NCBI GenBank assembly: GCA_951812285.1
Contig: OX638292.1
Location: 2,131,001-2,195,000 of the forward strand
DNA from: an uncultured Dehalococcoidia bacterium
Lineage (GTDB): Bacteria; Chloroflexota; Dehalococcoidia; Lucifugimonadales; UBA1127
Direction: 5' to 3'
DNA: 64,000 bases
In this document: piece after piece, positions 1 to 55,003 of the stretch
Position numbering within the stretch: the stretch's first letter is position 1
How the letters are laid out: each line of letters opens with the position of its first letter
The notes under the pieces: model-generated
The model's database searches: none
Told to the model about the DNA's origin: nothing
The model's input: only the letters and a program-made list of their open reading frames with translations
Made by a program: the position numbers and the translations under genes

Positions 1-1001
1 GGAATTGGTCCTCCTGCGCCGTGGTGGCTCGGGAATGGAGCTACCTGGACCCCGTACGCAGCCTCTGCGACCGTGAAGGCATTCCGGTGCAGATGGCCAA
101 CGAGGATTTCTCCGGTTTCTGGCACCTGCGGGAGACCCGCGCACTCATCCAGTGGCTACGGGCACGGAAGTCCAGGCTGGTGACGAGTGCGGACCTGAGC
201 GCCTGGCTTGCGGGCCAGCCATCCAATGATTGGATCGACCTGCTGGGGGAGGCCATTGGCGAATACGAGTTGGAGACGGGCGGCCTTGAGACTGCGGAGG
301 ACCACTTCGTTGAATGGCTGGCCGAGTGGGGCCGGGACTACCGCCGGCGCCAGCGGGGACTGCTCCTGCTCACCGCCCACCGGGCCAAGGGGCTGGAGTT
401 CGACCACGTCATCGTGCTGGATGGGGGATGGGACAGACCCGGGCGGGGGGAGGACGCGGACGCCCCGCGGCGGTTGTACTACGTTGCCATGACACGGGCG
501 CGGAAGACCCTTGCTCTCGCTCGCCTCGCCGGGAAGAACCCGATGCTAGACGCGCTAGAATCCGTACCCTCGACGCTGCACCGCGAGGAAGCCATGGCGT
601 TTCCGGAGGCGTCGCCGGAGTTGGACCGCCGCTATCGCCGGCTCAGCCTGCGCGACGTATTCCTGGGCTTCGCCGGATTCCGTCGGCCGGACCATCCCGT
701 CCATGCCGCCATTGCCGCCCTCTCGCCGGGGGATGTCCTTGCGGTGCGCCCAGGGTCGCCGCGATGGGAGCTGGTGGACTCCCACGGATTGGTGGTGGGC
801 CAGATCGCCGGTGGCTTCGAGGGAATCGCCGGAATGCGGTGCGCGTTTGCGACTGTCATGGCCATCGCCTCGTGGGACCAGGAACGTTCCCAACCGGACT
901 ATCGGCAGAGGCTGCAGTGCGAGGCATGGGAGGTCGTTGTGCCGGAGTTGGTGTTTAAACCGGCTTTGGAGTCTCCCAGACGAAATGAAGCCGATTCCTG
1001 A
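1..1001 (+). CDS. UvrD/Rep-type DNA helicase, C-terminal part (5' truncated by window)
   Basis: The reading frame is open from base 3, so the gene begins before the window and the GTG at 21 is only an internal codon. The visible part is the second RecA-like half of a superfamily 1A helicase. Motif V is seen as TAHRAKGLEF followed by DHVIVLDGGW (about codons 125-145), and motif VI as YYVAMTRARKTL. These bind ATP at the domain interface and couple hydrolysis to 3'-5' unwinding. About 130 residues follow motif VI and resemble no nuclease domain I recognise. The gene converges on the Argonaute operon's last gene with an 80-base gap, so it is a neighbour but not a co-transcribed partner. Confidence 0.85.
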   Translation, partial: NWSSCAVVAREWSYLDPVRSLCDREGIPVQMANEDFSGFWHLRETRALIQWLRARKSRLVTSADLSAWLAGQPSNDWIDLLGEAIGEYELETGGLETAEDHFVEWLAEWGRDYRRRQRGLLLLTAHRAKGLEFDHVIVLDGGWDRPGRGEDADAPRRLYYVAMTRARKTLALARLAGKNPMLDALESVPSTLHREEAMAFPEASPELDRRYRRLSLRDVFLGFAGFRRPDHPVHAAIAALSPGDVLAVRPGSPRWELVDSHGLVVGQIAGGFEGIAGMRCAFATVMAIASWDQERSQPDYRQRLQCEAWEVVVPELVFKPALESPRRNEADS

Positions 1002-1081: not shown

Positions 1082-2053
1082 CTAAACAACCTCACTTAAT
1101 CGTTGGTGGAGCGCCGCCACCCCGAAGCGCTTCTGTATATGTTGTTGCCCAGCGAAGCACCGATGCAAATGTGGACAATGGTTGCGGCAAAGACCGCTTG
1201 GCGTAGGTACCGCCCGGTCCGCAGTGTCGGCTGCGTCAATTTCGTGCATCTCCTGAAGGGTGTCAACGATACGGTCACGCTCCGACACGAGCGCTTTCAG
1301 CGTCACCGCTGCGCTAACTGTGAACTCTGTGTCAGCACCGAATTGAAGATTGACGGTCTCCACGTCGATCGAAGTGTCGTCCAGTGCTAGCGATCTGTCC
1401 TTTACGAACCAGTCGCATTTTGGCGACATGATCTCTGACATTGCCCACCATGAACGAACGATTATTCCGGTGTCGAATCGAGGGTAGACCACGGACCCGC
1501 GCGCTTTATAGTCCCGAACCAACACGCGGTGGGTTCCGTCATCAGACGACCTTATTCCCACGATGTCTGGACGGGTTCGTGACCTGAACCCGGGCTTGAG
1601 TTCTACGCCAGCAACTTCCGATTCGTGATACAGCGGGGCTTCCGCCCAAACCAGCAACTGACCACTATCAGGGTCAATGCTCCAGTCCTTCATCCCATCT
1701 CGCATCAAGAGGGCAGCCCGGTGAAGACCGTTGGAAGCAGACGACAGTCGTCTGGCCACTGGGTCATCGAATCGGCTCATGTTCTGCTCTTGAAGGTGCC
1801 TATCTAGCAGTTGGTTAAGTCGCTTGATGGCGGTCTCATCGTCAATCGAATGACCAGCTACATGCAGCGCTTCTAGTTGCCCATGGTAGTCCATCAATGC
1901 GTCATGAGTGGCTCGGCTCACTGACGCAGCCGTGTCGTCCGTCGGAGTAACTCCTGAGCCGTCGGCGTGATTGTCAAACCAAAAGCGAGTCTCACAGTTG
2001 CCGAAGGTATCGACCGCGGACGGTGAATAACTAATGTAATCTGTGCTGGCCAT
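1082..2053 (-). CDS. PD-(D/E)XK nuclease with AddB/Cas4-type Fe-S cluster
   Basis: A 323-residue protein with the layout of the RecB/AddB/Cas4 nuclease group. An early SPSAVDTFGNC segment supplies Cys20. A core RPDIVG (Asp163) is followed by VLVRDYKARG (Asp181-x-Lys183), the metal-binding acidic and lysine residues. A C-terminal CRNHCPHLHRC motif gives Cys289, Cys293 and Cys299. Four cysteines split this way normally hold a 4Fe-4S cluster that staples the nuclease fold. It is last in the leftward Argonaute operon, 40 bases after the metallopeptidase-like gene. Inference: it trims or degrades DNA selected by Argonaute, or prepares guide DNA. The catalytic D-x-K makes it probably active. Confidence 0.75.
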   Translation of the reverse strand: MASTDYISYSPSAVDTFGNCETRFWFDNHADGSGVTPTDDTAASVSRATHDALMDYHGQLEALHVAGHSIDDETAIKRLNQLLDRHLQEQNMSRFDDPVARRLSSASNGLHRAALLMRDGMKDWSIDPDSGQLLVWAEAPLYHESEVAGVELKPGFRSRTRPDIVGIRSSDDGTHRVLVRDYKARGSVVYPRFDTGIIVRSWWAMSEIMSPKCDWFVKDRSLALDDTSIDVETVNLQFGADTEFTVSAAVTLKALVSERDRIVDTLQEMHEIDAADTADRAVPTPSGLCRNHCPHLHRCFAGQQHIQKRFGVAALHQRLSEVV

Positions 2054-2093
2054 ACGACTTCTCCTTGCTTGCAGTTCCTGAATGCCGCAAACT

Positions 2094-3242
2094 CTAAGTT
2101 GGAACGGCCTGATCCTTCAGGTTCGTAACGGCGCCACGCTCCCAGGCATGGTATTCATTGGGAACGGACCAGAACCTCTCCCAAGCAGCATTCAGTAGGT
2201 CGTGAACCTTCCCCGTAGTTTGAAGGGTGACGATCCGGCAATTGATACGTCTTACGCCTTCTAGCGCATGAATTGCTGCTCTCTCCAGTAGTTCCAATGG
2301 ACACGCCCGCCGAAATATCTGACCCTGAGTCGCGCCTGTCGCATTGAGAAGGGCCTGCCATTTCTGTCGGACGGCGGCGGCATCGTCCGTGAATCCAATC
2401 AAATCGAGACCAATCAGCATAGCCTCCATTCTTGCGTGATCTGGTGGGTGCGATAACGGTCCCAAGAGTTGCACTTCATAAGGGTCGGCGTCGTACATTG
2501 CAGCCAAATGAAAGTGGGCCCAAGCATATGCCGGGCCCAGGGTATAGATGGCGAAGAGGTCGCAGAAAATCTCATTTGCCCACCCCATCGTCCAGGCATA
2601 TTCGAGGATGTCAATAATATCTCCGAAATACCGCCGTGGGCCCGTAGACCGTAGGTTTGTTCTTCGTTCTTCAGCGAAGTGAACCAAAGCGGCTCCGAGG
2701 AATCTAGAGTACTCAAGCTGATAGGGCTCGATGGCCGGGTTATTGACCTCAGTGATAAGGGGGTGCGCGATCTCGTGATATAGGTCTGGAAGGTGCAGCA
2801 GGAAGTCTGATTCTGCCAGAGGAACCTCTAGTAGACGGAAGGCGGGACTGATAGAAAAGTATGCACGAGAGAGACAAGTGACCGTGGGTGGTGCCAACGG
2901 ACACCTTATCTCCCTGTGAATATCCGCCACGATCCTGCTCAAGGCAGCGTCGTCTGCGTGCGACCTAGTCAACGCTGCGACTGCAGTAGTTTCCAAATTC
3001 GTAAGATCGGCGCGCAACCTCCGAAAGAGCCGGATTCGTTCTGCTAAGAGGTCTTGACGCAGAATGACTGAGTCCGTTAGGAGATATCCCAAATCGTCTA
3101 TAAGACCATCGATGTACTTGTCACAAATCTGACGCAGCGCTACAAACTCATTGATCTGGGAAGAGTAAGAGATTTTCGCTTTCAAGATCCGCGCGCGCTC
3201 CTGCGCCTGGCATATCGCGGCATCGATGTACCCCTCAATCAT
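2094..3242 (-). CDS. Argonaute-associated gluzincin-like metallopeptidase homologue
   Basis: Start ATG at 3242 is chosen because it overlaps the upstream stop (ATGA), giving 382 residues; the reading frame is open further upstream. The segment DLYHEIAHPL carries HEIAH at about residues 156-160, a zinc-binding HExxH. About 63 residues later comes NEIFCD (Glu224, Asp228), which matches the NExxxD third-ligand helix of gluzincins such as thermolysin. The first 130 residues are helical and charged. No signal peptide or membrane segment is seen, so it should be cytoplasmic. It is translationally coupled behind the 119-aa gene and Argonaute. I do not recognise a named family. A protease activated on target recognition is one possibility, a structural zinc protein another. 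Confidence 0.6.
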   Translation of the reverse strand: MIEGYIDAAICQAQERARILKAKISYSSQINEFVALRQICDKYIDGLIDDLGYLLTDSVILRQDLLAERIRLFRRLRADLTNLETTAVAALTRSHADDAALSRIVADIHREIRCPLAPPTVTCLSRAYFSISPAFRLLEVPLAESDFLLHLPDLYHEIAHPLITEVNNPAIEPYQLEYSRFLGAALVHFAEERRTNLRSTGPRRYFGDIIDILEYAWTMGWANEIFCDLFAIYTLGPAYAWAHFHLAAMYDADPYEVQLLGPLSHPPDHARMEAMLIGLDLIGFTDDAAAVRQKWQALLNATGATQGQIFRRACPLELLERAAIHALEGVRRINCRIVTLQTTGKVHDLLNAAWERFWSVPNEYHAWERGAVTNLKDQAVPT

Positions 3243-3598
3243 CGTTTGCCTCTGAACCCGGCAAGAGCTGCCGAGCATTCTTTGTCTAATTCAAGCGCGA
3301 TGTGTTCAAGTTGAGCGAGTTCGGACGAGTTGGGCGGACCGCCTTCAAGAACCGTGGCGAGCATATCGCAGAGTACGAGGCTCTGGAGGCGTCGACCCAA
3401 CACGATCCTTAGCATCAACGCAGCGTGATCCACCGACTGGTTCGCCGTCGCCTTGCGCAGCAAGTCCGCGATTTGCCGCCTCGCCTCATCAGCTATCGTG
3501 TTTTGAGGATTTCGAAGGGCAATCAGAGCACGGTCCAAGGTGTCCGCGTAGGAACGCAACTGTTGGTAGATGCTGCCGTTCAGCGCTACGTCACTCAA
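3239..3598 (-). CDS. Small helical protein between Argonaute and metallopeptidase
   Basis: An uncharacterised 119-residue protein whose start overlaps the end of the Argonaute gene by 8 bases and whose stop overlaps the next start. Such tight coupling implies matched amounts of product. The sequence is rich in Ala, Leu, Arg and Glu, has no signal peptide or membrane segment, and reads as a bundle of amphipathic helices (for example the DEARRQIADLLRKAT stretch). It shows no catalytic motif. Position suggests a partner or adaptor linking Argonaute to the downstream enzymes, but that is inference from gene order only. Confidence 0.7.
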   Translation of the reverse strand: MSDVALNGSIYQQLRSYADTLDRALIALRNPQNTIADEARRQIADLLRKATANQSVDHAALMLRIVLGRRLQSLVLCDMLATVLEGGPPNSSELAQLEHIALELDKECSAALAGFRGKR

Positions 3599-5993
3599 TT
3601 CGGCCCTCCTCGGCGGATTCGGAGTTCTCTGACTCGTCGTGGTCTACATTGTCGCCAAAGGCAAGCGCATCCTGGTCGTAGCTTCCGGCGTGCTCAGCTA
3701 GACGGATGTCTGTGAGTCTGAGCGAGAATGGAAGCCGCGAACACCCCTCGGGTTGAGTGAGCGCTAGACACGTCTGTGCATAGACGTCTTCCAAGACTAG
3801 ACCGAAGGGCATGGTGCCCTCAACGTACCTCACGTTTAGTGGCTGGGCCGTCCCTTGACGAAGATACTCGCGTCCCGTGGAACAAATGTAACCAGACTTA
3901 CTATTCAGCACGTGGTATTGGCCAAGGCCTGGATTCTCAACCCGAATTCTGCCTCCCTGTTGCGTTTCTACTTCAAATAGACGAAATGAGACAGCTGATG
4001 TCTTATGTATTTCGACAAAGGACGCCGACGTTCCTGTCATCAGTCCTTCTTTGTGCAACGCAACAAGCGCATCCTTCACGCCGTTTATCTCAGACTTGAA
4101 CCACTGGCCATCTCGAAGCAGCACAATGTTCTCAACCCTATCCATCCCTAAAGAGGCCTCTTGCCTCAAGATGTCGAACAACACTCTTCTTACATGGGCT
4201 TGAGCTAGTTTTTCTTTGTCCCTAGAGTAGGATACCTCTGTTCGGATAGATGGCCCTGATTTCCCAAGGAGAGTGAAGCAGGCCGTATTGTTCTGTACAT
4301 CCAAGGCTATAGTAAGATCCGCGTTAAGCGGAGTAGATAGCACGAAGGGCCATCTTTCATTCGTAAGAAGGACTTTGTTGATAGCGACATTGCGTAGGTA
4401 GCCGGCGAGCCGACTCCTCTTCTCAGGTATTGCCATATATGCAGGCCCATTGCTGGCCTGCTGGTGAAGACGATAAGACTCACCCGCCACTCTCGTATGA
4501 ATTACTGACACGAAAAGCTCCTGTTCCCGAAGCTTGGTCATCAACATGGCCGCGAGTTGGTCGTGTTCGCCTCTACCTCGGTCGAGTTCATGAATCATGA
4601 CGATGCCGTATCCGGGATCCAGCCCGGCAGATTCAACGGCTCCGAGGACAGCACTCGCCTGGGCGGCAAATGTTCTCTCCACACGATCCTCATAGTCGAT
4701 GATGGTCGGGGCATAGGGCACTTCTTGATCGTAAAGCGTGTTTACCTCAGCTCTCAGATCGCCGACAAAGGCCGGACCGTAGCTCTCTGCCACCGACCTC
4801 GGCATCACGAGGTACTGCCGATCGAGTGGCTTTCGAGAATAAGGTCCAATCTTGGGGTCACGAAGCGCTCCCAGCCGTTCTTTGCCTAGATCCTTGAGAC
4901 TAACATTGGAAGATCCCCTAGTCCCCCGCACAGAAAGGACGACCCGGTGGCCGAACTCTATGTCCGGCGGCAGAAGTGCCCTTTTCGGAACAGTAAGAGC
5001 ATTTGATGAAACGCGAACGATTGGATTCGCGCTATCAGTCCTGCCCAAGGAACTACTGACGAAGGCATTGATCAGAGAACGACGCAGGTGTGGCGGGAGA
5101 ATAGTGTCGCGGTGAATGCGCCTTACCCGAGAGTCAGCCGTTCCGAACACTGGATAGCAGAGGGCGGCAGCCGCATGCCTTGTTTCGCCATCATTTGTCA
5201 AGTATCCAACAGCCGGGCTCTCAGGTGGCAGTCCTGCTACGTCTTTCGGAAACGGCTTGGGAGCATTGCTCATTATGAAATCGAAAAGCGATGTTGCTCC
5301 CTGATCATCGAGTTTCAGCAGTTGTTCGCGAACAGTGAGGCCTGAATAGATAGTTGGCCGTATTTCGTACCATGCAAGACCATAGTGATACACACAGCGC
5401 GACCCTTTAAGATTTGCAAATGCATTCTGGGAAAGTACGACAGGAAGAGGACTATGTGACACGTATTTGTGCGTGACATCAACACAGACGCCAAAGCCGG
5501 ACGTTTCGCTGTAAACTACGCGCACGGAGTAGCCTCTGTAGACATCAATGCCTTCCTTAGTTAGGATCGGCTCCCTCTCGAACTGTGGATACCCGCTAGA
5601 GGGCTGCCAATACCGGCGATCGTGATAGAAAAACCCATTGATTATGAATTGAAGAAACCTCATACAGATTTGTTCGGTGTCCGGCGAAGGATCCACATAA
5701 TCTAGAGTGGTAATTTCGGAAGTCGGTTCGAAGTACGCGGTTGTGTTGGACACTTGAAACGGTGAAGGAGGTTCATCGGCATCTACAGAGACGATGAGGT
5801 ACAACTCGCCCCTGTCTTCAGTCACCGCAACCGGACTCCTGAGACGCTGGCTAATATCGCGGATGAGAACTTGAACGTTGCGATCGTAGTCTACCTGACC
5901 ACTAGTGAGCCCCTTGATCCGGTAAGAACGGTACTTGCTCTCAAGGCCGGCCAAGTTCAGGATTGGAAATACGTTGGTTTCTATCTTGCCCAT
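3591..5993 (-). CDS. Prokaryotic Argonaute, long form with intact DEDD catalytic tetrad
   Basis: 800 residues, normal for a long prokaryotic Argonaute (N, L1, PAZ, L2, MID, PIWI). Residues 150-185 (VYRGYSVRVV, then GVCVDVTHKYVSHSPL) look like the PAZ region. Residues about 460-500 resemble MID. PIWI follows from about 540: IALDV gives Asp565, DKEKL gives Glu594, VLLRDGQ gives Asp628 and LTDIRLAE gives Asp762. The Glu-to-Asp spacing is 34, as I recall for Thermus thermophilus Argonaute, so the slicer tetrad appears complete. Such proteins use short nucleic-acid guides to cut matching DNA or RNA. An AGGGG ribosome site precedes the ATG. It is the first enzyme gene after the XRE regulator, 154 bases away. 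Confidence 0.85.
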   Translation of the reverse strand: MGKIETNVFPILNLAGLESKYRSYRIKGLTSGQVDYDRNVQVLIRDISQRLRSPVAVTEDRGELYLIVSVDADEPPSPFQVSNTTAYFEPTSEITTLDYVDPSPDTEQICMRFLQFIINGFFYHDRRYWQPSSGYPQFEREPILTKEGIDVYRGYSVRVVYSETSGFGVCVDVTHKYVSHSPLPVVLSQNAFANLKGSRCVYHYGLAWYEIRPTIYSGLTVREQLLKLDDQGATSLFDFIMSNAPKPFPKDVAGLPPESPAVGYLTNDGETRHAAAALCYPVFGTADSRVRRIHRDTILPPHLRRSLINAFVSSSLGRTDSANPIVRVSSNALTVPKRALLPPDIEFGHRVVLSVRGTRGSSNVSLKDLGKERLGALRDPKIGPYSRKPLDRQYLVMPRSVAESYGPAFVGDLRAEVNTLYDQEVPYAPTIIDYEDRVERTFAAQASAVLGAVESAGLDPGYGIVMIHELDRGRGEHDQLAAMLMTKLREQELFVSVIHTRVAGESYRLHQQASNGPAYMAIPEKRSRLAGYLRNVAINKVLLTNERWPFVLSTPLNADLTIALDVQNNTACFTLLGKSGPSIRTEVSYSRDKEKLAQAHVRRVLFDILRQEASLGMDRVENIVLLRDGQWFKSEINGVKDALVALHKEGLMTGTSASFVEIHKTSAVSFRLFEVETQQGGRIRVENPGLGQYHVLNSKSGYICSTGREYLRQGTAQPLNVRYVEGTMPFGLVLEDVYAQTCLALTQPEGCSRLPFSLRLTDIRLAEHAGSYDQDALAFGDNVDHDESENSESAEEGRIE

Positions 5994-6147
5994 ATCTCAT
6001 CCCCTAAATAGGCTGATTCCCGCATGACTCGCCAGTGTGGACGATCCACAAAAGATCCGTGTATCCCCGACCTTTTGCTTCAACACACTGCTTCTAAGAG
6101 TGGCAGACGATTCTGTGAGTCAGAGAAGCCGGCTTCGTCATTCATTC

Positions 6148-6519
6148 CTATGCCCCGCGCCGTCCCTTCCTGGCACGTGAGCGGAGGAAAGAAAGGTAGT
6201 CAAGCAACTCGGTTTCCTCTGCTGGCGTGATTTTGCCGAAACGACGGAAAACTACTGATGCGGATCGTGCCTCGGTCGTTTCTGGAGAGGGCGAGGGATA
6301 CCCAGCTAGTTCCATGAGAGAATCGTACGGAACACCGTAGAGCTCGGCGAGTTTGTAAAGTTTGACCGGTGACGGTTGTTTGACCTTCCCCGATTCCATT
6401 TGGCTGACAAAGGCGTTGGAGATGCCTGACCTACCTTCCACTTGCCTAAGGGAAAGTGCCTTGGCCTCGCGCATGGCCCTGAGGTATTTGCCTAGTTTCA
6501 GTTGATTTTCATTCTCCAT
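6148..6519 (-). CDS. XRE-family transcriptional regulator of the Argonaute operon
   Basis: 123 residues with an N-terminal Cro/CI helix-turn-helix (LRQVEGRSGISNAFVSQMES region, about residues 22-42) and a short C-terminal helical tail. The frame is open upstream, but the ATG at 6519 is chosen because a good promoter ends six bases before it; an upstream ATG would lie inside the -35/operator region. It reads in the same direction as Argonaute, 154 bases ahead, so it likely controls itself and perhaps the whole cluster. Chromosomal relatives often repress until a signal relieves them. Confidence 0.85.
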   Translation of the reverse strand: MENENQLKLGKYLRAMREAKALSLRQVEGRSGISNAFVSQMESGKVKQPSPVKLYKLAELYGVPYDSLMELAGYPSPSPETTEARSASVVFRRFGKITPAEETELLDYLSFLRSRARKGRRGA

Positions 6520-6559
6520 GTGCTCACAATAGCAAAGGATGCTTGACATGTCAAGCATC
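6520..6559 (-). promoter_or_regulatory. Promoter with perfect 22-bp operator for the XRE gene
   Basis: A perfect 22-base inverted repeat (arms GATGCTTGACA and TGTCAAGCATC) occupies 6538-6559. Read leftward, the same bases supply a consensus -35 TTGACA (6554-6549), a 17-base spacer and a -10 TATTGT (6531-6526). The start codon follows after only six bases, so the message is probably leaderless. A regulator bound to the palindrome would cover the -35 box, the arrangement expected of autorepression. Confidence 0.75.
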
Positions 6560-6836
6560 AAAAGGACAATTGGAATTCACCCTCCGGTGCCTTCACGTCC
6601 TCCCGAAACGGGAGGGCTGGCCGGGGCCCTCGTCAAGGTGCTAAAGACGTGGTTTTGGGCGCTCCGCTGGGAGTGACCTACGCCCTTCATTCGCTTCACC
6701 GTCTCGGCAGTTGCCCACCCAAGTGCGAAAACGCCGTTTCAAACGGTCGCTTCAGAGGGCAGATGGCCGCTGCTAGTGCGTGCGGCCACCTGCCCAGTCT
6801 CTCCCTACCAGACCTTGAATGGCCAAGGCCTGGCCC

Positions 6837-7686: not shown

Positions 7687-8358
7687 AGGGAGGGGCTGGT
7701 GAAGAGGCCTGAGATGCGGCTGGCTGCGGGCAAGGAATACCATCGGAAGACCACCGGCCCCCACCAGATGTGGGCCACCGACGCCTCCTACTTCAGGGTG
7801 GTCGGCTGGGGCTACTACTACCTGGTCACCGTTATGGACGACTACTCCCGATTCATCCTGGCCCACAAGCTTCAGAGGGACATGACATCCGACTCCTTCA
7901 TCGAGGTTGTGCAGGAGGCAGTGGACAGGACTAGCATGGATCAGGTCCCAGTAACAAACCGCACCAGGCTGCTGAGCGACAACGGACCGGGTTACGTGTC
8001 AAGGGCCTTCAGGGACTACCTGGGCATGGTGGGCATCGGGCACATACTCGCTGCTCCTTTCCACCCTCAGACCAACGGGAAGCTGGAGCGCTACCATCAG
8101 ACCCTCAAGGGGGGCGTGAACCAGTTGCCGTTTGAGCTGCCCTCAGACCTGGAGGCGGCTATCGTAGCCTTCGTCAGCTACTACAACTACCGGCGCTATC
8201 ACAAGGCCCTGGGAAACGTGACGCCGTCCGACGTGCTAAGGGGCAGGCGAGATGAGATTCTACAACGCAGGAAGGAGATACAGACTCAGACAATCGAAAG
8301 GCGAAGACAGCACAACAGGGCACTCAGGGTGCTTACCAGACCTCCATCCGACCCATGA
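7681..8358 (+). pseudogene. IS481/IS3-type transposase, 5'-truncated remnant
   Basis: About 225 codons of an rve-core (DDE) transposase. WATDASY holds the first Asp, LLSDNGPGY the second and HPQTNGKLERYHQTLK the Glu. The homologous frame can be followed upstream of the GTG at 7699 to about 7681 (RREGLVKRP). There it meets the intron domain V, so the N-terminal helix-turn-helix half is gone. The catalytic core itself is intact. No terminal inverted repeat could be identified on either side. Its insertion, or a recombination next to it, probably removed the rest of the intron and the 5' end of the DUF2958 gene. Confidence 0.8.
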
Positions 8359-8670: not shown

Positions 8671-8901
8671 GTGTTCTCATCTGCAATCCTCATTCGCATT
8701 CGCAAGGAACACGGACTCACTCAAGAGGAAGTGGCTCGTCGCAGTGGCTTGGCCACCGTCACGATCTCAAAGTTGGAGGAGGGCCAGAATACTGACCCTA
8801 GGATGAGCACGCTCGCGAAGCTGGCGGCAGCTCTTGAGTGCCCGCCGAGTGTGTTCTTTGAGGAACTGCTAACAATCCGTGACATAGGTGAACGGTCATG
8901 A
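8671..8901 (+). CDS. Small XRE-family regulator of the methyltransferase module
   Basis: 76 residues, nearly all one Cro/CI helix-turn-helix (LTQEEVARRSGLATVTISKL, about residues 16-35). The start is GTG with an AGGGG-like site a little upstream. Its stop overlaps the next ATG (ATGA), so it is translated with the methyltransferases. Small controller proteins of this kind in restriction-modification operons delay nuclease production until the DNA is methylated. Here that role is inferred from position and from the palindrome in its promoter. Confidence 0.85.
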   Translation: MFSSAILIRIRKEHGLTQEEVARRSGLATVTISKLEEGQNTDPRMSTLAKLAAALECPPSVFFEELLTIRDIGERS

Positions 8902-10775
8902 ATCCCCTCAGTTCTACGCTAAGCCTCAAGGAACATACGCAGGCTTCAACCCGAACCAAGCCCGGAGACGCTCTTAGCATCCTTTACGAGAGACAATTAA
9001 GGGCCACCCGTGGGGGTTCCCTCTACAATGCTTTCCCCTACCCGACCAAGATCTCCCCCGAAGCTATTGCGCTCTTTATCGCAAGTCATACGAATCCAGG
9101 CGACACAGTATTTGATGGGTTTGCCGGAAGCGGAACAACTGGCCTTGCCGCCCTGCTGTGTGAGGACCCTCCACCACGACTTCGTGCGGAGGCTGAAGGT
9201 CTAGGCTTAGACGTTCAGTGGGGCGCAAGGAACGCCGTGCTATACGAGCTTAGTGCACTCGGCTCGCTCGTCGCGAGTACACTGACGAATCCCCCAAATC
9301 CCGTAGTCTTCCAAAGAGCCGCTAGTGAGATGCTGTCAAACGTTGAGCGATCTTCAGGTTGGATGTATGACGCGGCGGATGTTAACAAGTACAGCGGAAA
9401 GATCCGGTATGTAATATCGTCAGACATTGTCACTTGCCCAGGCTGCAGGCAAGAAGTGACCCTATGGGACGCTTGCGTGGCGCTGCACCCCGCCCGAATT
9501 GGGCCAAACTTCGTCTGTCCAAGATGTGCCTACGTGTGCACCGCCGACTGCCCTGAACGGCTGACGACAATAAACAGAGACGAATTTCTCGGGTCCTTCC
9601 AAGAGGTCAGGAGGCGCGAGCCTGTCCGGGTCTGTGGAGCAAGTGACGGAAAATCTTGGTCACGCCCACCAAATCAAGCAGACATGGATCTTCTCTGGCA
9701 CGTTGAACGAGAACCCATCCCAGACTCAGTTCCTAGAGCCCTTGTTCCATGGGGTGACTTATATCGTCGCGGCTACCACACAGGAATGACCCACGTGCAT
9801 CACTTCTACACACGAAGAAACCTGATTGCCTTTGGCCGCCTATGGGAACGGACAGCGGGATATGACCATTCGGTGCGTCAAGCACTTCGGTTCTGGCTTC
9901 TCAGCTACAACGCCTCACACTCGACAACCATGACTAGAGTCGTAGCGAAAGCCGGGCAAGAAGACCTTGTCGTTACTAGTGCTCAACCAGGGGTGTTGTA
10001 CGTGAGTGGGTTGCCTGTTGAAAAAAATATCTTCGACGGACTGAGGCGGAAACTCGAAACGATCACAAAAGCGTTCTCTGTCACATACGCAAAGGCGGGT
10101 ACAATTAAGGTAGTTGAAGACTCGAGCTGTCGAGTAGGTCTTCCAGACTCTAGTATTGACTACGTGTTCACGGACCCACCCTTTGCCGGGAATATCCCTT
10201 ACGCCGAGGTCAACTTCATTAACGAAGCCTGGCTAGGTCGCTACACCGACCGGACCGACGAAATCATCGTCAGCAATAGCCAAGGCAAGACAACGACCGA
10301 ATACGAAGAGCTCCTAACCCAAGCGTTGACTGAAGTTAATCGCATCCTCAAGCCCAACGGTAGAGCCACATTGGTCTTTCACTCCTCAACGGCCGATGTT
10401 TGGAGTGCACTGCAGAATGCGTACACTGCGGCAGGATTTGGCGTTGAGCATGCAAGTGTCCTAAACAAGACGCAGGGCAGCTTCAAACAGGTGACTACCA
10501 ATGGTGCCGTGAAGGGCGACCCGGTGCTATTGTTGGCTAAGCAGCTTCGCGAAAATGCCGCGCCCAACCAAGACATTTGGGAGACTGCTGAGAGATTGCT
10601 GAGAACTGCCATGCGCCACGTGGATCCTGAAGAACGCACCATCCAGAGGCTGTATTCCCGTTTAGTGAACTACTGCTTGGTCAATCACGAGAGGGTCCAA
10701 GTCGATGCCGAAGCCTTCTATAGGTGGTGCGCGAGACAACCTGACTTGGCGGTGAAGGCCGTTGCGAGCGACTGA
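8898..10775 (+). CDS. DNA methyltransferase with internal zinc-ribbon (beta-class order)
   Basis: 625 residues. DGFAGSGTTG (73-82) is the S-adenosylmethionine-binding motif and TDPPFAG (about 425-431) the catalytic DPP(F/Y) motif of amino-methyltransferases acting on adenine N6 or cytosine N4. An insertion between them carries two CxxC pairs (Cys180/183 and Cys207/210), a probable zinc ribbon for DNA contact. The order (motif I well before motif IV with a large insertion) and size are unusual for a simple restriction methylase. ATGA overlap with the XRE gene upstream and a 14-base overlap downstream show a tightly coupled operon. Substrate specificity cannot be read from sequence. Confidence 0.8.
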   Translation: MNPLSSTLSLKEHTQASTRTKPGDALSILYERQLRATRGGSLYNAFPYPTKISPEAIALFIASHTNPGDTVFDGFAGSGTTGLAALLCEDPPPRLRAEAEGLGLDVQWGARNAVLYELSALGSLVASTLTNPPNPVVFQRAASEMLSNVERSSGWMYDAADVNKYSGKIRYVISSDIVTCPGCRQEVTLWDACVALHPARIGPNFVCPRCAYVCTADCPERLTTINRDEFLGSFQEVRRREPVRVCGASDGKSWSRPPNQADMDLLWHVEREPIPDSVPRALVPWGDLYRRGYHTGMTHVHHFYTRRNLIAFGRLWERTAGYDHSVRQALRFWLLSYNASHSTTMTRVVAKAGQEDLVVTSAQPGVLYVSGLPVEKNIFDGLRRKLETITKAFSVTYAKAGTIKVVEDSSCRVGLPDSSIDYVFTDPPFAGNIPYAEVNFINEAWLGRYTDRTDEIIVSNSQGKTTTEYEELLTQALTEVNRILKPNGRATLVFHSSTADVWSALQNAYTAAGFGVEHASVLNKTQGSFKQVTTNGAVKGDPVLLLAKQLRENAAPNQDIWETAERLLRTAMRHVDPEERTIQRLYSRLVNYCLVNHERVQVDAEAFYRWCARQPDLAVKAVASD

Positions 10776-12885
10776 CGCACGACTCCATGCACGCGCTTTC
10801 GCGCGTCAATTTGAGTCAACCTTGCCGACCGAGCAACGGAAGGCACTGGGCCAGTTTTTCACGGGCTTGCCCCTAGGCAAACTTCTAGCCCATCTTGCCC
10901 TTACTCATGACACAGAAACTGTGTTGGACCCTATGGCCGGCCACGGTGACCTACTCGACGCAACATGGGAGACAGCTGAGAGTCGAGCCATCCCCCTCCG
11001 AAGGCTGGATGGAATCGAGGTTGATGCACTCACTGCCTCTGTCTGCCGCGAACGACTCTCAATGATCTCAAAGAGAAGCGCCGCTCCTTCGTGCCGTATC
11101 TTGACCGGCAGTGCGTTTGAACTCCACGACGTGGGTCAGTTACCTCTTGGGAGTTACGACCTCGTCATCACTAACCCACCGTATGTCAGATACCAAGTCC
11201 GGCAAGGGCGAGGCGGCGATGAACTTAGCGTCCGGGCAGGTCTTCAAGCCATCGCCACGCAGCGTGCCCCCAGTTTGGAACTGACTCTTTGGCGGAGGAT
11301 CATAGCAGGATATTCAGGCCTGGCGGACCTATCAATTCCCTCGTGGTTGCTTGCAGGGCTTCTTGTCCGTCCCGGTGGACGCCTAGCGCTAGTCGTCCCA
11401 GCGACGTGGCGCTCCCGTAACTATGGCGATGTCATACGCTACATGCTCCTGCGCTGCTTCGCTGCCGAGTACATTGTTGAGGATGTTCGGGCCGGATGGT
11501 TTAGCGAAGCCTTGGTTAGGACACACCTCATCGTTGCTAAGCGTTTGTCACCTGAAGAGACAGCGATTCCAGTCACTGAGAGACGCTTCTTCCCTCAATG
11601 CAGATGGATACAGGTTGCGCCAGAGGCTGGAACCCCCGATTCCGTTGTTGGTGGCCTATTTTGGGGCGAGAAGCCCGAAGCTGACTTTCTCAATTGGCTG
11701 CAAGGCGAAGCGAGAGGTAAACTACAGGGCATCACACTCGATGACTTCTGTCTGCAAGATGAATGGAGTCTGCTTAGGAGCCGCCTCAGTGAGAAGCGGT
11801 GGTTCCGAACCATTGAGCCTTCGAATCCAACACTGCCGATTTTCGGCCATACAGTTCGTAAGCCCTCCCCAAGCCTACCTGATGCTGTGAGACGCTTAGT
11901 CGCTGAAGACGGCGGTGGGCTGTGTACACTCGAAGATCTTGGGATTCATGTCGGCCAGGGTCTTCGTACTGGCTGCAATCCTTTCTTCTATGTGACTGAG
12001 CGCTCGCACTCTCATGACGGCCTTGTGCTTGTGCAAACTTCAGAGTCCTTTGGGGGACGACTATTCGAAGTGCCGAAGGAAGCGCTCCGGCCAGTCCTTC
12101 ACCGCCAGTCCGATATCCCAACCCTGCTTGATGGCAACCTGCCGCCAATTCGGGTACTTGATTTGCGAGGCTGGGCGCTCCCGGAGGATGCGGAGGTTGT
12201 CTCAAGCAATTCCTCAGCCTATCTTGCCGCGGGAGAAGAAGTACCGCAAACGATGCCTTCAGAGTTGGCTGACTTAGTCCGATTGGCCGCACAATCAAGC
12301 CTACGTGGGCAGTCCGGTTGGATACGCATTCCTGATATGTCCGCGGTGCGCACTAACATTCGGCCTCCCAGGAAGGGCAGCACACCAAGGTTCTGGTATA
12401 TGCTTTCGAGCTTTGCGCCACGGCACTTGCCTTCGGCCTTCGTTCCTCGGGTAAACCACAAACGACCGTGGGTTGAGGTGAATCTAGATCCACCTGTGCT
12501 AGTTGATGCAAACTTCAGCTCGTTCTGGTCCACTCGAAGTCTGTGGACCGGAATTGCGCTAAAGGCACTGCTCAACAGTGTCTGGTGTCAAACCCTTATG
12601 GAGGCACTTGGTACTCCACTTGGCGGAGGTGCTCTCAAATTAGAGGCTACCCACCTCCGAAGAATGCCGGTGCCATGGCTATCTGACGAGTCCATTGAGG
12701 TACTAGAAATGGCAGGAAAACAACTCACGCGAGACTCAATTGAGACGCAGAGAGAAGTGGACGAGGTAGTACTTCGCGTCGTCTTAGGTGCCTCAGGTCA
12801 AGATGGAGACTCTAGGGAAGTCGCGCTCAAGTTGCGCAAGATGTCGCGTGATCTTGAATTGAAGCGCCAGAGAGCAACCAAATGA
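10762..12885 (+). CDS. N6-adenine DNA methyltransferase, gamma-type with target-recognition region
   Basis: 707 residues, starting at a TTG preceded by GGTGAAGG inside the upstream gene. Motif I is LDPMAGHGDLLDA (about 56-68) and motif IV TNPPYVRY (about 138-145), the signature of adenine-N6 methylases of the Eco57I/type I HsdM sort. QRKALGQFFTG near residue 28 is the usual N-terminal tag of that family. The C-terminal 350 residues lack recognisable motifs and probably recognise target DNA. The stop overlaps the next start (ATGA). I see no nuclease motif, so cleavage must come from a neighbour. Confidence 0.8.
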   Translation: MRATDARLHARAFARQFESTLPTEQRKALGQFFTGLPLGKLLAHLALTHDTETVLDPMAGHGDLLDATWETAESRAIPLRRLDGIEVDALTASVCRERLSMISKRSAAPSCRILTGSAFELHDVGQLPLGSYDLVITNPPYVRYQVRQGRGGDELSVRAGLQAIATQRAPSLELTLWRRIIAGYSGLADLSIPSWLLAGLLVRPGGRLALVVPATWRSRNYGDVIRYMLLRCFAAEYIVEDVRAGWFSEALVRTHLIVAKRLSPEETAIPVTERRFFPQCRWIQVAPEAGTPDSVVGGLFWGEKPEADFLNWLQGEARGKLQGITLDDFCLQDEWSLLRSRLSEKRWFRTIEPSNPTLPIFGHTVRKPSPSLPDAVRRLVAEDGGGLCTLEDLGIHVGQGLRTGCNPFFYVTERSHSHDGLVLVQTSESFGGRLFEVPKEALRPVLHRQSDIPTLLDGNLPPIRVLDLRGWALPEDAEVVSSNSSAYLAAGEEVPQTMPSELADLVRLAAQSSLRGQSGWIRIPDMSAVRTNIRPPRKGSTPRFWYMLSSFAPRHLPSAFVPRVNHKRPWVEVNLDPPVLVDANFSSFWSTRSLWTGIALKALLNSVWCQTLMEALGTPLGGGALKLEATHLRRMPVPWLSDESIEVLEMAGKQLTRDSIETQREVDEVVLRVVLGASGQDGDSREVALKLRKMSRDLELKRQRATK

Positions 12886-15800
12886 CGGCAAACGTTGCAG
12901 AAGCCCAGGAACTGATTAGGCGCTGCAGGAACTTACGCTACACTGGCGAGAGTGAATCTGTACTTCGGAGCGAAGTGTTATCTCGTCTCCGCGTGGTATT
13001 CGGCCAACCTGAGGACGATGCATGGGTGAGCCGCTACAGCACAGGAACCGAAGCACATACAGTCGTTGGGCAAGCAGGAGGAAGCACAGCAAGTAGGTTC
13101 ATCGATAACTTGGTCGGGGCGACGACTATCGAATACGAATCGGACCTACGGGTGACTTCCAAACGGAATGAGGGTCTACACCAAGTTAGAGAGCACACCT
13201 CTGGGCTTGTCCGCAGCGGCATTTCCGAATCACAGGTCCGAGGAGTTCTTTCCGACACGATTGAGTGGTATGCCTACGACGTTAGGTTGGCCCCTGGCGC
13301 AAGCCCTGCAACCTGCACGACCGACGATATCATTCTGGAACTTGTCGATTCCCTCGTCCTCGATAGCGATGATGTGTCCAATGCGGAGCACTTGATTAGA
13401 TTCCTAAGGAGGCACCTAGCGCGCGAGCAGTCACGGCCCCTTAGGGCTGTTCTCTTGACCAATGATCTTGGGCTCGACGGCAGCTCTTACCTTCAAAGCG
13501 TCAGTTCGCTCCTTGGGATCTTGCAGGAAGCAAGGGAAGCCGACCCGTCCATTGAGCTCGCTACGGACTTATGGTCACAGTTTGTGGATTTCCTTGAGGG
13601 CGAGTCGATGGGTTTCCGTGCAAACGAATATGTAGATGAATTGTATCTGTGCCTGCTTGCCCGATTGCTCGCTGCGAATGTTCTCCACGGGCACGCGTTG
13701 TTAAGTGACGCAGATGAGATTAAGGCCATACTTGACGGAACCCATTTCCGTAACCGCTACCTAATAGAGAATATGGTTGAGCACGACTATTTTGGATGGA
13801 CGAGCGGACCTGGATACATCGAAATGTTGTTGCCGGTGGCCAGGCAGATCCAAGGCGACCTTTACGCCTATGACTTTGCCTCCCCACCCGAAGAGGACTT
13901 GTTTGGGCGCCTGATGGCTCAATTGGCGGGCAGGAGCCAGCGAAAACTCCTTGGCCAAGAATGGACTCCGTCATGGTTGGCTAGGCTCCTGGCAGAACGG
14001 TGTTTGGACAATCTGCCAGAAGGCGAGACTCCCAGAATCGTGGACATGTGCTGTGGCTCGGGCTCAATCTTAGCCGAAGTCCTAAGAGCCGCTAGAAGGA
14101 GGCAAGGCCTAAACAACTTGGCCTCTCTGCATGAAGTGGCTACTGGTTTCGACATTGACCCCTTGGCGGTGAGTCTTGCTAAGGCCACATGGACCGCAAC
14201 CTTGGCAAGTGAGATTAGATCAACCACCGGGCCAATTGTCATCCCCATTTACCACGCCGATTCCCTCTTTGCGGTTACTCCCTTGTCAAAGGAGCTACCC
14301 CTATTCGGCGCAAGTGATGCTATCGAGGTTTCCTTGGATGGTGAAGTCATCAGCATCCCGAACATTCTGGTGCAGCCCGAGTATGCACGCCTCTTTGAGC
14401 ACATTGTGGATTGGGCATATGACGAGGCCCTCGACGCGAAGAAAGAAGGCACCTCTGAGCACCTAACTCAGCGTGTTGCCAATGAGTACTTGAAAGCGGC
14501 GGCGGCGTCAGTGGACACAAGGATTCCGGCTGACCTTGAAGAACCGCTCGGAATGGTCGTCTATGCCTTAGCTCGCCGTATGGCCGAACTTGCCATTGCC
14601 GAACGCAATGGCATTTGGGGGTTTATTCTTCGGAATGCGTACCGCCCGGGTCTACTCACTGGTCAGTTCAATGGGCTGGTATCCAATCCGCCCTGGCTTA
14701 CGATGAGTCGATTGGCTGACAACCCATACCGCTCGCTCCTAAGGGAAAGAGCGCAAGCTTATGGCATCCAACCACCAGGGCAGTCATTCTTGCATCTTGA
14801 GCTGGGCACTACACACCTGTTGCACGCTGTTGACCGCTACCTGACAGAATATGCATCTGTGGCTTGTCTGGTCCCGGGCACCATTCTCAATGGTCACCAT
14901 CATGAACCGTTTCGTAGGCAAGGGTTCATGGAAGCCCGACGTCCTGTGCATCTCCACATCCAAGAAGTGTGGCAGGTCGCGCCCGGCACCTTCAAATATC
15001 CTGGGGCAGCGATCATAGGCCTACGGAGCCAAGCAACGCCCCTGCATCAATCCCCAGGGATCGCCGGATTCGTTGCCACGCAGACCGGCCTGGAGAGAGT
15101 GGACTTCACGGAACGAACCCTTGGTTTGAATCGCTCAGCTTGGGTGCTGGAGAGACAAGGAACGCCGGCAGCCATTCATGGCACAGCGAGAATGCCACAA
15201 CAAGGGGCAGATTTGATGCCAAGGACGGCAGTTTGCGTTGAGGTCTTGGACGACAGGGGTTCTGAATTTAGGGTGGACACTCCAGGGCGGGACTCACGTT
15301 GGGCCTTTACAATTAAGGCCGCGAAGGAGTTAAAGGGAGTCCGATTCCCTGGGCACGTTGCTCCGCCGTTCCTATATTGGATGGCGCAGTCTGAAAACTT
15401 GCTTCCATTCCTACTTGGAGATCACTGTGCGCCTGTGGCACTCCCTGCTTTGCGCCACGACACCGGAGAATGGGAGGTCGTGGATCAATCAGAGATTCGC
15501 CGCCGAGGGTTCATCCAAACTGCTAGAAGGTTTCGAGACATTGACCATGAACTCCAGCGAATTGGAAAGGGCACACCATTACATCAACGCATAGAAGAGC
15601 GGCGCAAGTTAACAATGCAAGAATTTGGAAGCGGCAATTTCTTGGTTGTTACTGGGGCGGGTGGCAAGTACACTTGTGCCGCGTGTGTCGATCTAGTTGA
15701 TGGACAAAGGTTGGTCGTAGACCAAACCCTCTATTGGCAAGTAGTCGACAATCCTGATGAAGCTTGGTATCTCGTGGGTATGTTGAACAGTGACGCAATG

Positions 15801-16130
15801 ACTCAAGCCGTGGCACCATTCAATCCCAAGGGGGCCTTTGGAGAACGTCACATCCATTCCCTTCCTCATCGCATGATGCCTCCCTTTGACCCGGCAGTGC
15901 GCGAACATACCAGAGTCTCCGAGCTAGCAAGACAGTCAAGTGACCTGGTCAGAAATATGGTAGCTACCGACTCCCTCATCCAGAATCCATCCAAGCCGCT
16001 TCACCTTAGGAGGAGTAGGGTTAGGAGACAGCTCTTGTCCATGCCACAATTCCAAGAGATGGAATCTATTTGCGCGCTCCTTCTGGGAACTACGGCAATG
16101 GATGAAGAGGGGGCGTCACACCTCCAATAG
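12882..16130 (+). CDS. Large Eco57I-like DNA methyltransferase with degenerate nuclease-like N-terminus
   Basis: 1,082 residues. Residues 70-110 (RFIDNL, IEYESDL, then a Gln-Val-Arg-Glu-His stretch) look like a PD-(D/E)XK core in which the Lys of ExK is replaced by Glu (Glu84-Tyr-Glu86). The methyltransferase core follows: EWTPSWLA, motif I VDMCCGSGSIL (about 386-396), FDIDPLAV, and motif IV SNPPWLT (about 602-608). The remaining 470 residues may recognise the target. The layout matches type IIG or BREX PglX-like proteins, but no PglZ or BrxC gene is present. The operon overlap (ATGA) links it to the previous methylase. Confidence 0.75.
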   Translation: MTANVAEAQELIRRCRNLRYTGESESVLRSEVLSRLRVVFGQPEDDAWVSRYSTGTEAHTVVGQAGGSTASRFIDNLVGATTIEYESDLRVTSKRNEGLHQVREHTSGLVRSGISESQVRGVLSDTIEWYAYDVRLAPGASPATCTTDDIILELVDSLVLDSDDVSNAEHLIRFLRRHLAREQSRPLRAVLLTNDLGLDGSSYLQSVSSLLGILQEAREADPSIELATDLWSQFVDFLEGESMGFRANEYVDELYLCLLARLLAANVLHGHALLSDADEIKAILDGTHFRNRYLIENMVEHDYFGWTSGPGYIEMLLPVARQIQGDLYAYDFASPPEEDLFGRLMAQLAGRSQRKLLGQEWTPSWLARLLAERCLDNLPEGETPRIVDMCCGSGSILAEVLRAARRRQGLNNLASLHEVATGFDIDPLAVSLAKATWTATLASEIRSTTGPIVIPIYHADSLFAVTPLSKELPLFGASDAIEVSLDGEVISIPNILVQPEYARLFEHIVDWAYDEALDAKKEGTSEHLTQRVANEYLKAAAASVDTRIPADLEEPLGMVVYALARRMAELAIAERNGIWGFILRNAYRPGLLTGQFNGLVSNPPWLTMSRLADNPYRSLLRERAQAYGIQPPGQSFLHLELGTTHLLHAVDRYLTEYASVACLVPGTILNGHHHEPFRRQGFMEARRPVHLHIQEVWQVAPGTFKYPGAAIIGLRSQATPLHQSPGIAGFVATQTGLERVDFTERTLGLNRSAWVLERQGTPAAIHGTARMPQQGADLMPRTAVCVEVLDDRGSEFRVDTPGRDSRWAFTIKAAKELKGVRFPGHVAPPFLYWMAQSENLLPFLLGDHCAPVALPALRHDTGEWEVVDQSEIRRRGFIQTARRFRDIDHELQRIGKGTPLHQRIEERRKLTMQEFGSGNFLVVTGAGGKYTCAACVDLVDGQRLVVDQTLYWQVVDNPDEAWYLVGMLNSDAMTQAVAPFNPKGAFGERHIHSLPHRMMPPFDPAVREHTRVSELARQSSDLVRNMVATDSLIQNPSKPLHLRRSRVRRQLLSMPQFQEMESICALLLGTTAMDEEGASHLQ

Positions 16131-16155
16131 TTCTAGTCATACGGACGGGCAATTG

Positions 16156-17241
16156 ATGCCGACAATTCACCAGAGCCCACTCCACCCGGAGCAGATACTG
16201 TTTGCACTAAAGGACCTGGCTCAAGATGGTCTTGAGAGGGTGAGAGTGGCAGTTGCCTATGCTACGCGAGCAGGCTGCGAGAGCTTGGTGAGCGCTCTGG
16301 AAGAGAAAATAGGCCCAAGTGCAATGGCTTTGTCACCTAAGTTGCTCGTTACGTCCTTTGACTTCGGTCATACTGAACCTGAGGCCCTCAAATACTGGAG
16401 ATCACTTCCCAACAGTGAGGTCAAGATCGCCAATGTCCACAGGCCCAGGGGAACTCTAGACCTGTCGGCTGGCGCTTCGAACTTCCACCCCAAAGCCTAT
16501 TTGTTTGACTATTCTTCAATTGCATCCATCCTCGTTGGGTCGCCTAACCTTACCCGCCGAGCACTAACAGTGAATACCGAAGTCGCCATCACCGAGACAA
16601 ACCTCGGCAACGAGGCCAGTGAAAGGTTGTGGATTGAGTCGTGGCATTCAGGCGAATCACTCTCGGATGACCTGCTTGAAGAGTACGCTTTGGCTAGGCC
16701 CCACCGACCCGTGCCAAACATGGATCCACCGATTCAGGGACCCCCAGTCCTACCCTCCAAGACTGTCATACGCCTGATTGACGCGATCGACTCAGGGCTT
16801 GACCCATCGCGGTATCGCAGTATGTGGATTCAAGCGGGTACGATGACTTCAGGAGGGTCTCACAATCAATTGGAACTACCTCGGGGGACCAATCTGTTCT
16901 TCGGATTCAACTACGACACCTATGGGCCAGAGCACATTACCATTGGACAACCGATCCTGATGGCCAAGGGTCGGGTATGGAGTGACCGACAGCTGTCCTG
17001 GCACGCTGGCGGTGGGCAAAACGCAATGGAGCGGCTAAACCTCCCGACTCAAGCACAAGGCGGATACCAGTATGCAGACACGGCAATTCTCTTCAGGCGC
17101 ACTTCAACGGGATTCGAATTGACGGTTGCCCCATGGGGGAGCAGTCGGGCAAATGCGTGGCTAAACGCGTCGGCAGGTAGTGGCACGCTATTTCGCACCG
17201 GGCTTGGAGATACGTCAAGACTGTGCGGGTTGTTGAACTAG
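16156..17241 (+). CDS. PLD-family (HKD) nuclease, probable restriction effector
   Basis: 361 residues from the ATG at 16156, preferred over one at 16102 because GGACGGG lies seven bases ahead and the earlier start would sit inside the upstream gene. FHPKAYLFD followed by GSPNLT (about residues 111-133) is a complete HxKx4D...GS motif of the phospholipase D nucleases, as in BfiI and NgoFVII. Only one HKD motif is visible, so two subunits would build one metal-independent active site. The C-terminal half should recognise DNA. As the only clear nuclease of the five-gene operon it is the likely effector. DNA breakage rather than lipid hydrolysis is inferred from context. Confidence 0.75.
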   Translation: MPTIHQSPLHPEQILFALKDLAQDGLERVRVAVAYATRAGCESLVSALEEKIGPSAMALSPKLLVTSFDFGHTEPEALKYWRSLPNSEVKIANVHRPRGTLDLSAGASNFHPKAYLFDYSSIASILVGSPNLTRRALTVNTEVAITETNLGNEASERLWIESWHSGESLSDDLLEEYALARPHRPVPNMDPPIQGPPVLPSKTVIRLIDAIDSGLDPSRYRSMWIQAGTMTSGGSHNQLELPRGTNLFFGFNYDTYGPEHITIGQPILMAKGRVWSDRQLSWHAGGGQNAMERLNLPTQAQGGYQYADTAILFRRTSTGFELTVAPWGSSRANAWLNASAGSGTLFRTGLGDTSRLCGLLN

Positions 17242-53670: not shown

Positions 53671-53680
53671 GCAATTGCCC

Positions 53681-54937: not shown

Positions 54938-55003
54938 CGGTTTGTCTTGACCTTCTTCATTCTTACCCAAATAGGGGCCGAAAACTATTGTGAGTAGGGG
55001 CCG

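Follow-up and report, generated by a model that had tools for sequence, protein, structure and literature searches.

A conserved Argonaute operon with a metallopeptidase-like partner in an uncultured Dehalococcoidia bacterium

The operon and its recurrence across phyla

We analysed a 64,000-nucleotide stretch of DNA (the window, positions 2,131,001 to 2,195,000 of contig OX638292.1) from an uncultured Dehalococcoidia bacterium whose genome is a single contig of 2.86 Mb. The system in question is an operon encoding an XRE-type regulator, a long Argonaute (Ago), a small helical protein of 119 amino acids (aa), a 382-aa protein with the motif HEIAH (the HEIAH protein) and a nuclease (Table 1). 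A prediction made earlier from the sequence alone had claimed this gene order, together with its motifs and overlaps of mostly 4–8 bases. Indeed, all five genes lie on the minus strand in that order and the motifs are in place, but the overlaps are confined to two of the four junctions (8 bases between the Ago and small-protein genes, 4 bases between the small-protein and HEIAH genes), the other two being gaps of 154 bases (XRE to Ago) and 40 bases (HEIAH to nuclease). The earliest start of the HEIAH open reading frame, at 3278, would give a protein of 394 aa instead of 382 aa.

Table 1. Genes, motifs and putative operator of the operon, in positions of the window
Feature	Position	Strand	Remarks
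XRE/HTH_31 repressor-like protein	6148..6519	-	ATG start; CapH-like over nearly full length
Long Argonaute, D-R (PliAgo) group, 800 aa	3591..5993	-	Tetrad D565/E594/D628/D762; MID H499, Y532
Small all-helical protein, 119 aa ('S120')	3239..3598	-	TTG start
HEIAH protein, 382 aa, gluzincin-type metallopeptidase-like	2094..3242	-	Invariant motifs, model, profile comparison
PD-(D/E)XK nuclease, Cas4/AddB-like	1082..2053	-	Cys20/289/293/299; last in operon
HExxH motif, H156-E157-I-A-H160	2763..2777	-	Model helix 153-164; invariant 64/64
E224-x-x-C-D228, putative third zinc ligand and orienting Asp	2559..2573	-	Model helix 203-235; E, D invariant 64/64
H265-P-x4-R271, invariant downstream His/Arg pair	2430..2450	-	64/64
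Perfect 22-bp palindrome GATGCTTGACATGTCAAGCATC, putative XRE operator	6538..6559	-	Overlaps -35 box TTGACA of promoter-like site

Independent tblastn searches with the Ago and with the HEIAH protein matched the same five plasmids, from Rhizobium, Runella, an Aphanizomenonaceae cyanobacterium, Spirosoma and Emticicia, and each of them carries nuclease, Ago, small protein and HEIAH protein in a single block. Scanning the HEIAH alignment against a genome collection of 84,980 species yielded 73 loci, and the order nuclease–Ago–small protein–HEIAH was found in 58 of the 62 loci with at least 5 kb upstream; of the other four, L017 and L059 lack Ago, and L080 and L083 are broken. Across the 61 full loci, the nuclease and Ago genes overlap in 53, and the small-protein and HEIAH genes are at most 50 bases apart in every case. 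A divergent Ago branch (L144, with a further example in the L017 genome) has the same four genes in the same order. When 395 Bacteroidota genomes were searched with an Ago profile, all seven long Agos (six close, one divergent) were accompanied by the small protein and the HEIAH protein, and three short, weakly matching prokaryotic Argonautes (pAgos) all lacked both. Among 400 genomes of the window's own phylum, one other contained such an Ago, and HEIAH was present there too.

Judged from record titles and the tree, the set occurs in at least 11 phyla (Chloroflexota, Planctomycetota, Verrucomicrobiota, Cyanobacteriota, Bacteroidota, Pseudomonadota, Acidobacteria, Latescibacterota, Cloacimonadota, Tectimicrobiota and KSB1). 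The nearest relative of the window HEIAH protein in the tree is from Chloroflexota; the tree as a whole mixes phyla, and therefore the operon moves horizontally. Chance co-localisation was rejected, the set recurring in more than 60 loci. The genome-context search proposed along with the original prediction thus clearly excludes that Ago, small protein and HEIAH never recur together, and the dedicated system claimed there is borne out. In summary, the operon is real, conserved and largely uncharacterised, and the version in the window is best explained as a complete copy, with altered gene order, of a defence-type operon that has spread horizontally. In two of the plasmids, Multiubiquitin/ThiF/DUF6527 genes, which resemble a bacterial ubiquitination-like operon, adjoin the Ago operon (L005 12232-14411, L007 2567-4980).

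The Argonaute and its encoded partners

The window Ago matches the PADLOC model pAgo_II with E=6e-262, and its nearest solved structures are 7r8f-k, titled 'Argonaute' (E=3e-126), of which 7R8J is a PliAgo structure according to the text of PMC9360449. The DEDD tetrad is complete and corresponds in position to PliAgo D563/E592/D626/D762; in the alignment with relatives D565, E594 and D628 are found in 43 of 43 Agos and D762 in 42 of 43, so that the catalytically complete Ago of the original prediction stands. The same text describes the MID pocket of the PliAgo group as RHSY-type, with absolutely conserved His and Tyr, and these are present in the window Ago as H499 and Y532. Because of the complete tetrad, these two pocket residues and the nearest structures, the window Ago on its sequence belongs to the PliAgo group of the D-R pAgos. 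This class was described in 2022 as DNA-guided and RNA-cleaving in vitro, with the cut placed between target positions 9' and 10', and as falling into one group associated with a nuclease and a helix-turn-helix (HTH) regulator and another with a nuclease and sigma70, the linked PD-(D/E)XK nuclease being distantly related to Cas4 (text of PMC9360449).

The HEIAH protein had been claimed to carry a gluzincin-type zinc-peptidase site, and structure prediction and a gluzincin search had been suggested for it. Across 64 aligned HEIAH proteins, down to approximately 20% identity, H156, E157, H160, E224, D228, H265, P266 and R271 are invariant. In the AlphaFold2 model (predicted local distance difference test score, pLDDT, 96.4) HExxH and ExxxD lie on two gluzincin-like helices and H265 sits just ahead of a further helix (268-281). 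Invariance and model together support the claimed gluzincin-type site, and they bear indirectly on whether the residues are placed to bind zinc. Neprilysin also has a His-x5-Arg pair, which we take as a lead only. In the VIA structural list the protein is matched, over ranges that include its catalytic part, to the M13 enzymes Zmp1 (Z 7.5, 185 residues) and neprilysin (Z 7.4, 177) and to the M48 enzyme ZMPSTE24 (Z 7.7, 200), although Z values below 8 may reflect merely a common arrangement and would not decide the matter by themselves. Comparison of profiles by hhalign ranked M78 (ImmA/IrrE) at the top (E=3e-5 to 7e-5), ahead of M3 (0.006-0.008), M48 (0.03-0.05), M13 (0.05-0.075) and reversed profiles (0.37 or worse), and it paired the HExxH of HEIAH with that of M78 and ExxCDxFA with ExxANxFA. 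Searches of Pfam, NCBIfam and PADLOC gave no significant match for the HEIAH protein; M13 (best E=0.052, one member) and M48 (E=0.011, the divergent L144 member) stay below their curated cut-offs. Membership of M78 itself was rejected, and we call the protein a predicted, M78-like gluzincin rather than an M78 peptidase because no curated cut-off was reached. A Foldseek search against the PDB returned nothing significant, PDB sequence profiles for the HEIAH and small proteins gave coiled coils, designed and other helical proteins only, and no HEIAH relative was found among viral contigs or phage records.

Two unusual relatives were observed. A distant one in Sinorhizobium terangae (L009 7296-8684) has HEVGH...ExxxD without the downstream HPx4R, matches PADLOC peptidase_U41 (E=4e-11) and neighbours CHAT-AAA, a 1595-aa AAA ATPase and a C25 peptidase, with no Ago. 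In another (L035 419-2764), on an acidobacterial contig cut just upstream, HEIAH is fused to a second region of approximately 400 aa with its own HEFLH and DYDADAFA motifs.

The small protein is modelled as five helices (pLDDT 82.6), and Foldseek with it found helical bundles only. It is best conserved at L104/E107 and at its extreme N-terminus (M1, S2), where model confidence is low.

The window nuclease matches PDDEXK_1 (E=3e-7), and D163, D181, K183, C20, C289, C293 and C299 are present in 49 of 49 aligned nucleases including that of the window, whose row was placed at only approximately 15% identity. Its four cysteines, one N-terminal and three C-terminal, form the pattern expected of a Cas4/AddB-type Fe-S cluster. 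Between the window and L011, identity is 53% for Ago and 61% for HEIAH, as against approximately 14% for the nuclease, and a profile built from the other 48 operon nucleases does not recognise the window nuclease; that it is an orthologue of the canonical one is thus unsupported. It also comes last in the operon, whereas the canonical nuclease comes first. No plasmid relative of it was found, and among solved structures the PD-(D/E)XK proteins 9iab and 9iac show a weak match to the nuclease profile. The simplest reading is that another Cas4/AddB-like nuclease has replaced the original, and that the system needs such a nuclease yet tolerates a foreign one. Its likely role is guide supply; in a 2025 study, cyanobacterial pAgos reportedly cooperate with Cas4-family nucleases.

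Regulation and the possible role of the HEIAH protein

The window XRE matches the CapH model with E=9e-12 over profile positions 4-99 of 103, and near-full-length CapH matches were also obtained for the XRE proteins of L047, L059 and L005. Promoter-like hexamers span 6554-6526 ahead of the gene, and the palindrome covering the -35 box is unique within the window. Among 39 loci with the window's XRE type, 26 have a related inverted repeat (TTGCTTG...TTAGCAA and variants) within 170 bases before the HTH region of the XRE gene, against 3.9% of random segments; with a second XRE type, five of five testable loci have TGTTGACTTCAA-TCAACA-like repeats, against a background of 0.8%. The patterns were picked after inspection of the loci, which makes the contrast with background somewhat optimistic. 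Since a palindrome covers the promoter and such repeats recur ahead of the XRE gene, the XRE is probably an autorepressor of the operon. Where the contig reaches upstream of the operon, what is found is, with few exceptions, either an XRE of one of the two types or a sigma70 factor together with a protein of approximately 200 aa.

Three loci (L017, L047 and L059) consist of XRE, small protein and HEIAH with open reading frames and nothing of the nuclease or Ago between them, the HEIAH of L059 being cut by the contig end. A search for remnants of nuclease or Ago in these loci found none. L017 and L047 fall on different starred branches of the tree, each amid relatives that have Ago, and neither has lost an invariant residue. 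No such Ago was found elsewhere in the draft genomes of L047 and L059; the draft genome of L017 contains, at another site, a complete operon of the divergent kind. The trio of XRE, small protein and HEIAH is thus separable, as one would expect if it were a switch, because three loci keep it without nuclease and Ago; these loci may represent recent loss of the latter two genes. In L047 an Eco57I-type methyltransferase (4882-6564) follows the trio on the same strand, so that the trio may work for a different defence gene in that locus.

The XRE operator, the ImmA/IrrE-like profile and the three loci without Ago fit a regulatory protease no less well than the guide-triggered one suggested by the original prediction. 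We tentatively favour a reading in which HEIAH and its translationally coupled small partner would form a proteolytic control switch after the logic of CapH/CapP or ImmR/ImmA, and we rate this reading a little short of an even prospect. Precedents for such a switch are CapH+CapP and PprI/DdrO (PMC13373217, PMC10904395). The XRE would repress its own operon through the palindrome over the promoter until a signal of infection or DNA damage caused HEIAH to cleave the repressor; in operons of the sigma type, the cleaved protein would instead be the approximately 200-aa partner of the sigma factor. Nuclease and Ago would then accumulate; with help from the nuclease, invading DNA might yield short DNA guides, and Ago would cut transcripts complementary to them.

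Several observations weigh against this switch. The main one is that HEIAH is retained where the sigma factor and the approximately 200-aa protein replace the XRE, and the L144 operon keeps it with neither XRE nor sigma factor; the XRE is therefore not the sole reason for the presence of HEIAH. The genes for ImmA and CapP usually adjoin the XRE gene directly, and the HEIAH gene does not. Moreover, no PF06114 (M78) match was among the families listed for the 64 HEIAH members, no HEIAH protein gave a CapP-type PADLOC match, the VIA structural list contains M13 and M48 and not M78, and the hhalign probability for M78 is just 62-74%. The constancy of HEIAH and small protein beside nuclease and Ago under any regulator (XRE of type 1 or 2, sigma factor or none) points rather to the effector side, where recognition of target RNA by guide-loaded Ago would activate HEIAH to cleave the nuclease, the small protein or host proteins. 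Protease-activated nucleases are indeed known in Hachiman, AVAST and Canu (PMC12799240). We nevertheless consider this rival, although a live one, rather doubtful, as XRE, small protein and HEIAH persist in three loci that have neither nuclease nor Ago, the window nuclease is unrelated by profile and therefore unlikely to hold a cleavage site specific to HEIAH, and the HExxH proteases known to act with XRE proteins are regulatory. Guide-triggered proteolytic immunity as a universal property of the D-R pAgo family, with target recognition switching on a zinc peptidase that would cleave operon or host proteins, appears somewhat less probable still.

It has also to be considered that the small protein is itself the direct substrate or inhibitor of HEIAH, the two making up an inhibitor/protease or toxin/antitoxin-like pair, so that XRE, small protein and HEIAH would form a module for addiction or abortive infection that travels with the Ago genes. 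The overlapping or nearly touching genes of the pair in nearly all loci, its retention where Ago is absent and the conserved, low-confidence N-terminus of the small protein would fit, but the pair almost never occurs alone and its strict linkage to nuclease and Ago suggests a role within that system, which leaves this explanation improbable. Lastly, HEIAH could be a zinc-site protein without peptidase activity, serving as a structural or nucleic-acid-binding subunit of an Ago complex, in keeping with its mostly helical make-up, the want of a clear relative in Foldseek and of a family match at curated thresholds. The HExxH catalytic Glu and the downstream His and Arg are, however, invariant in 64 of 64 proteins, which goes beyond zinc ligands alone, and we regard a non-catalytic HEIAH as very improbable.

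Gene neighbourhood and comparison with known systems

To the left of the operon, convergent with the nuclease gene, lies the end of a 1716-aa fusion of DEAD/RecQ-like and UvrD-like helicases (window 3-1001, plus strand; L146 4852-10002). On the other side, a remnant of an IS481/IS3-type transposase (7699-8358, plus strand; 219 aa, below family cut-offs) separates the operon from what is probably a defence cluster acting by restriction or methylation (8671-17241, plus strand), whose overlapping genes encode, in this order, an XRE protein, a PglX-like methyltransferase, a pair of further large proteins resembling methyltransferases (one of them near type IIG) and a protein with a PLD domain. Further away are an HNH endonuclease gene overlapping one for an AAA_21/AAA_15 ATPase, which resembles a two-gene defence pair (52960-54970, minus strand), and a large serine recombinase (Resolvase, Recombinase and zinc ribbon; 60956-62677, plus strand), a sign of an integrated element.

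Of the described systems, the D-R pAgos of the PliAgo/RslAgo and PnyAgo/HpeAgo groups share with the window the same Ago, a Cas4-related PD-(D/E)XK nuclease and an HTH or sigma70 regulator (text of PMC9360449). In the window, by comparison, the nuclease follows Ago and is of another lineage by profile. The combination of this Ago with its Cas4-like nuclease and a regulator of HTH or sigma type is not new, having been known since 2022; the peptidase-like and small partners appear to be undescribed. The text of PMC9360449, with its Fig. 1b outside our scope, names the nuclease and the HTH or sigma regulator and neither the small protein nor HEIAH, and our literature search found no report of a D-R pAgo with a peptidase, preprints and most subscription papers lying outside its scope, so that this absence is weak evidence. 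The loci of the source organisms of RslAgo (Runella slithyformis, L005) and PnyAgo (Pedobacter nyackensis, L066) hold the full set, small protein and HEIAH included.

With CapH+CapP, PprI/DdrO and ImmA/ImmR the operon shares a CapH-like XRE with a palindromic operator, an HExxH motif of peptidase type in an immune-type operon and, for HEIAH, a nearest profile in M78. HEIAH differs from CapP, PprI and ImmA in its larger size (382 aa), an N-terminal helical region, the invariant HPx4R, the coupled small helical protein, its place at the far end of the operon and its presence in sigma-type operons. Ago and small protein stand between XRE and HEIAH in the window, the nuclease as well in canonical loci, and the small protein alone in the three loci without Ago; because other genes thus separate the peptidase gene from that of the XRE, we did not file the pair as CapHP. 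In the CapH+CapP pair, the peptidase cleaves the XRE upon binding ssDNA. The immune operons of Hachiman, AVAST and Canu likewise combine protease and nuclease genes, but there a trypsin-like or caspase-like protease activates a gated nuclease (PMC12799240), whereas the window operon has a predicted gluzincin and gives no sign of gating, although no search aimed at a gating insertion was made. M13 (neprilysin/Zmp1), M48 (ZMPSTE24) and M3 share the HExxH...ExxxD gluzincin arrangement, M13 and M48 with overlaps of Z 7.2-7.7 over 177-200 residues, and their profiles are less similar to HEIAH than that of M78.

The new part, as far as sequence comparison can tell, is that HEIAH and the small protein, apparently undescribed, are nearly universal partners in D-R pAgo operons. 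This adds a probable protease to Argonaute systems, and for the DNA-guided, RNA-cleaving Argonautes it turns an orphan enzyme into a defined system of 4-6 genes with testable switch points. At the Runella and Pedobacter loci, an Ago already characterised in vitro can be tested alongside its real partners.

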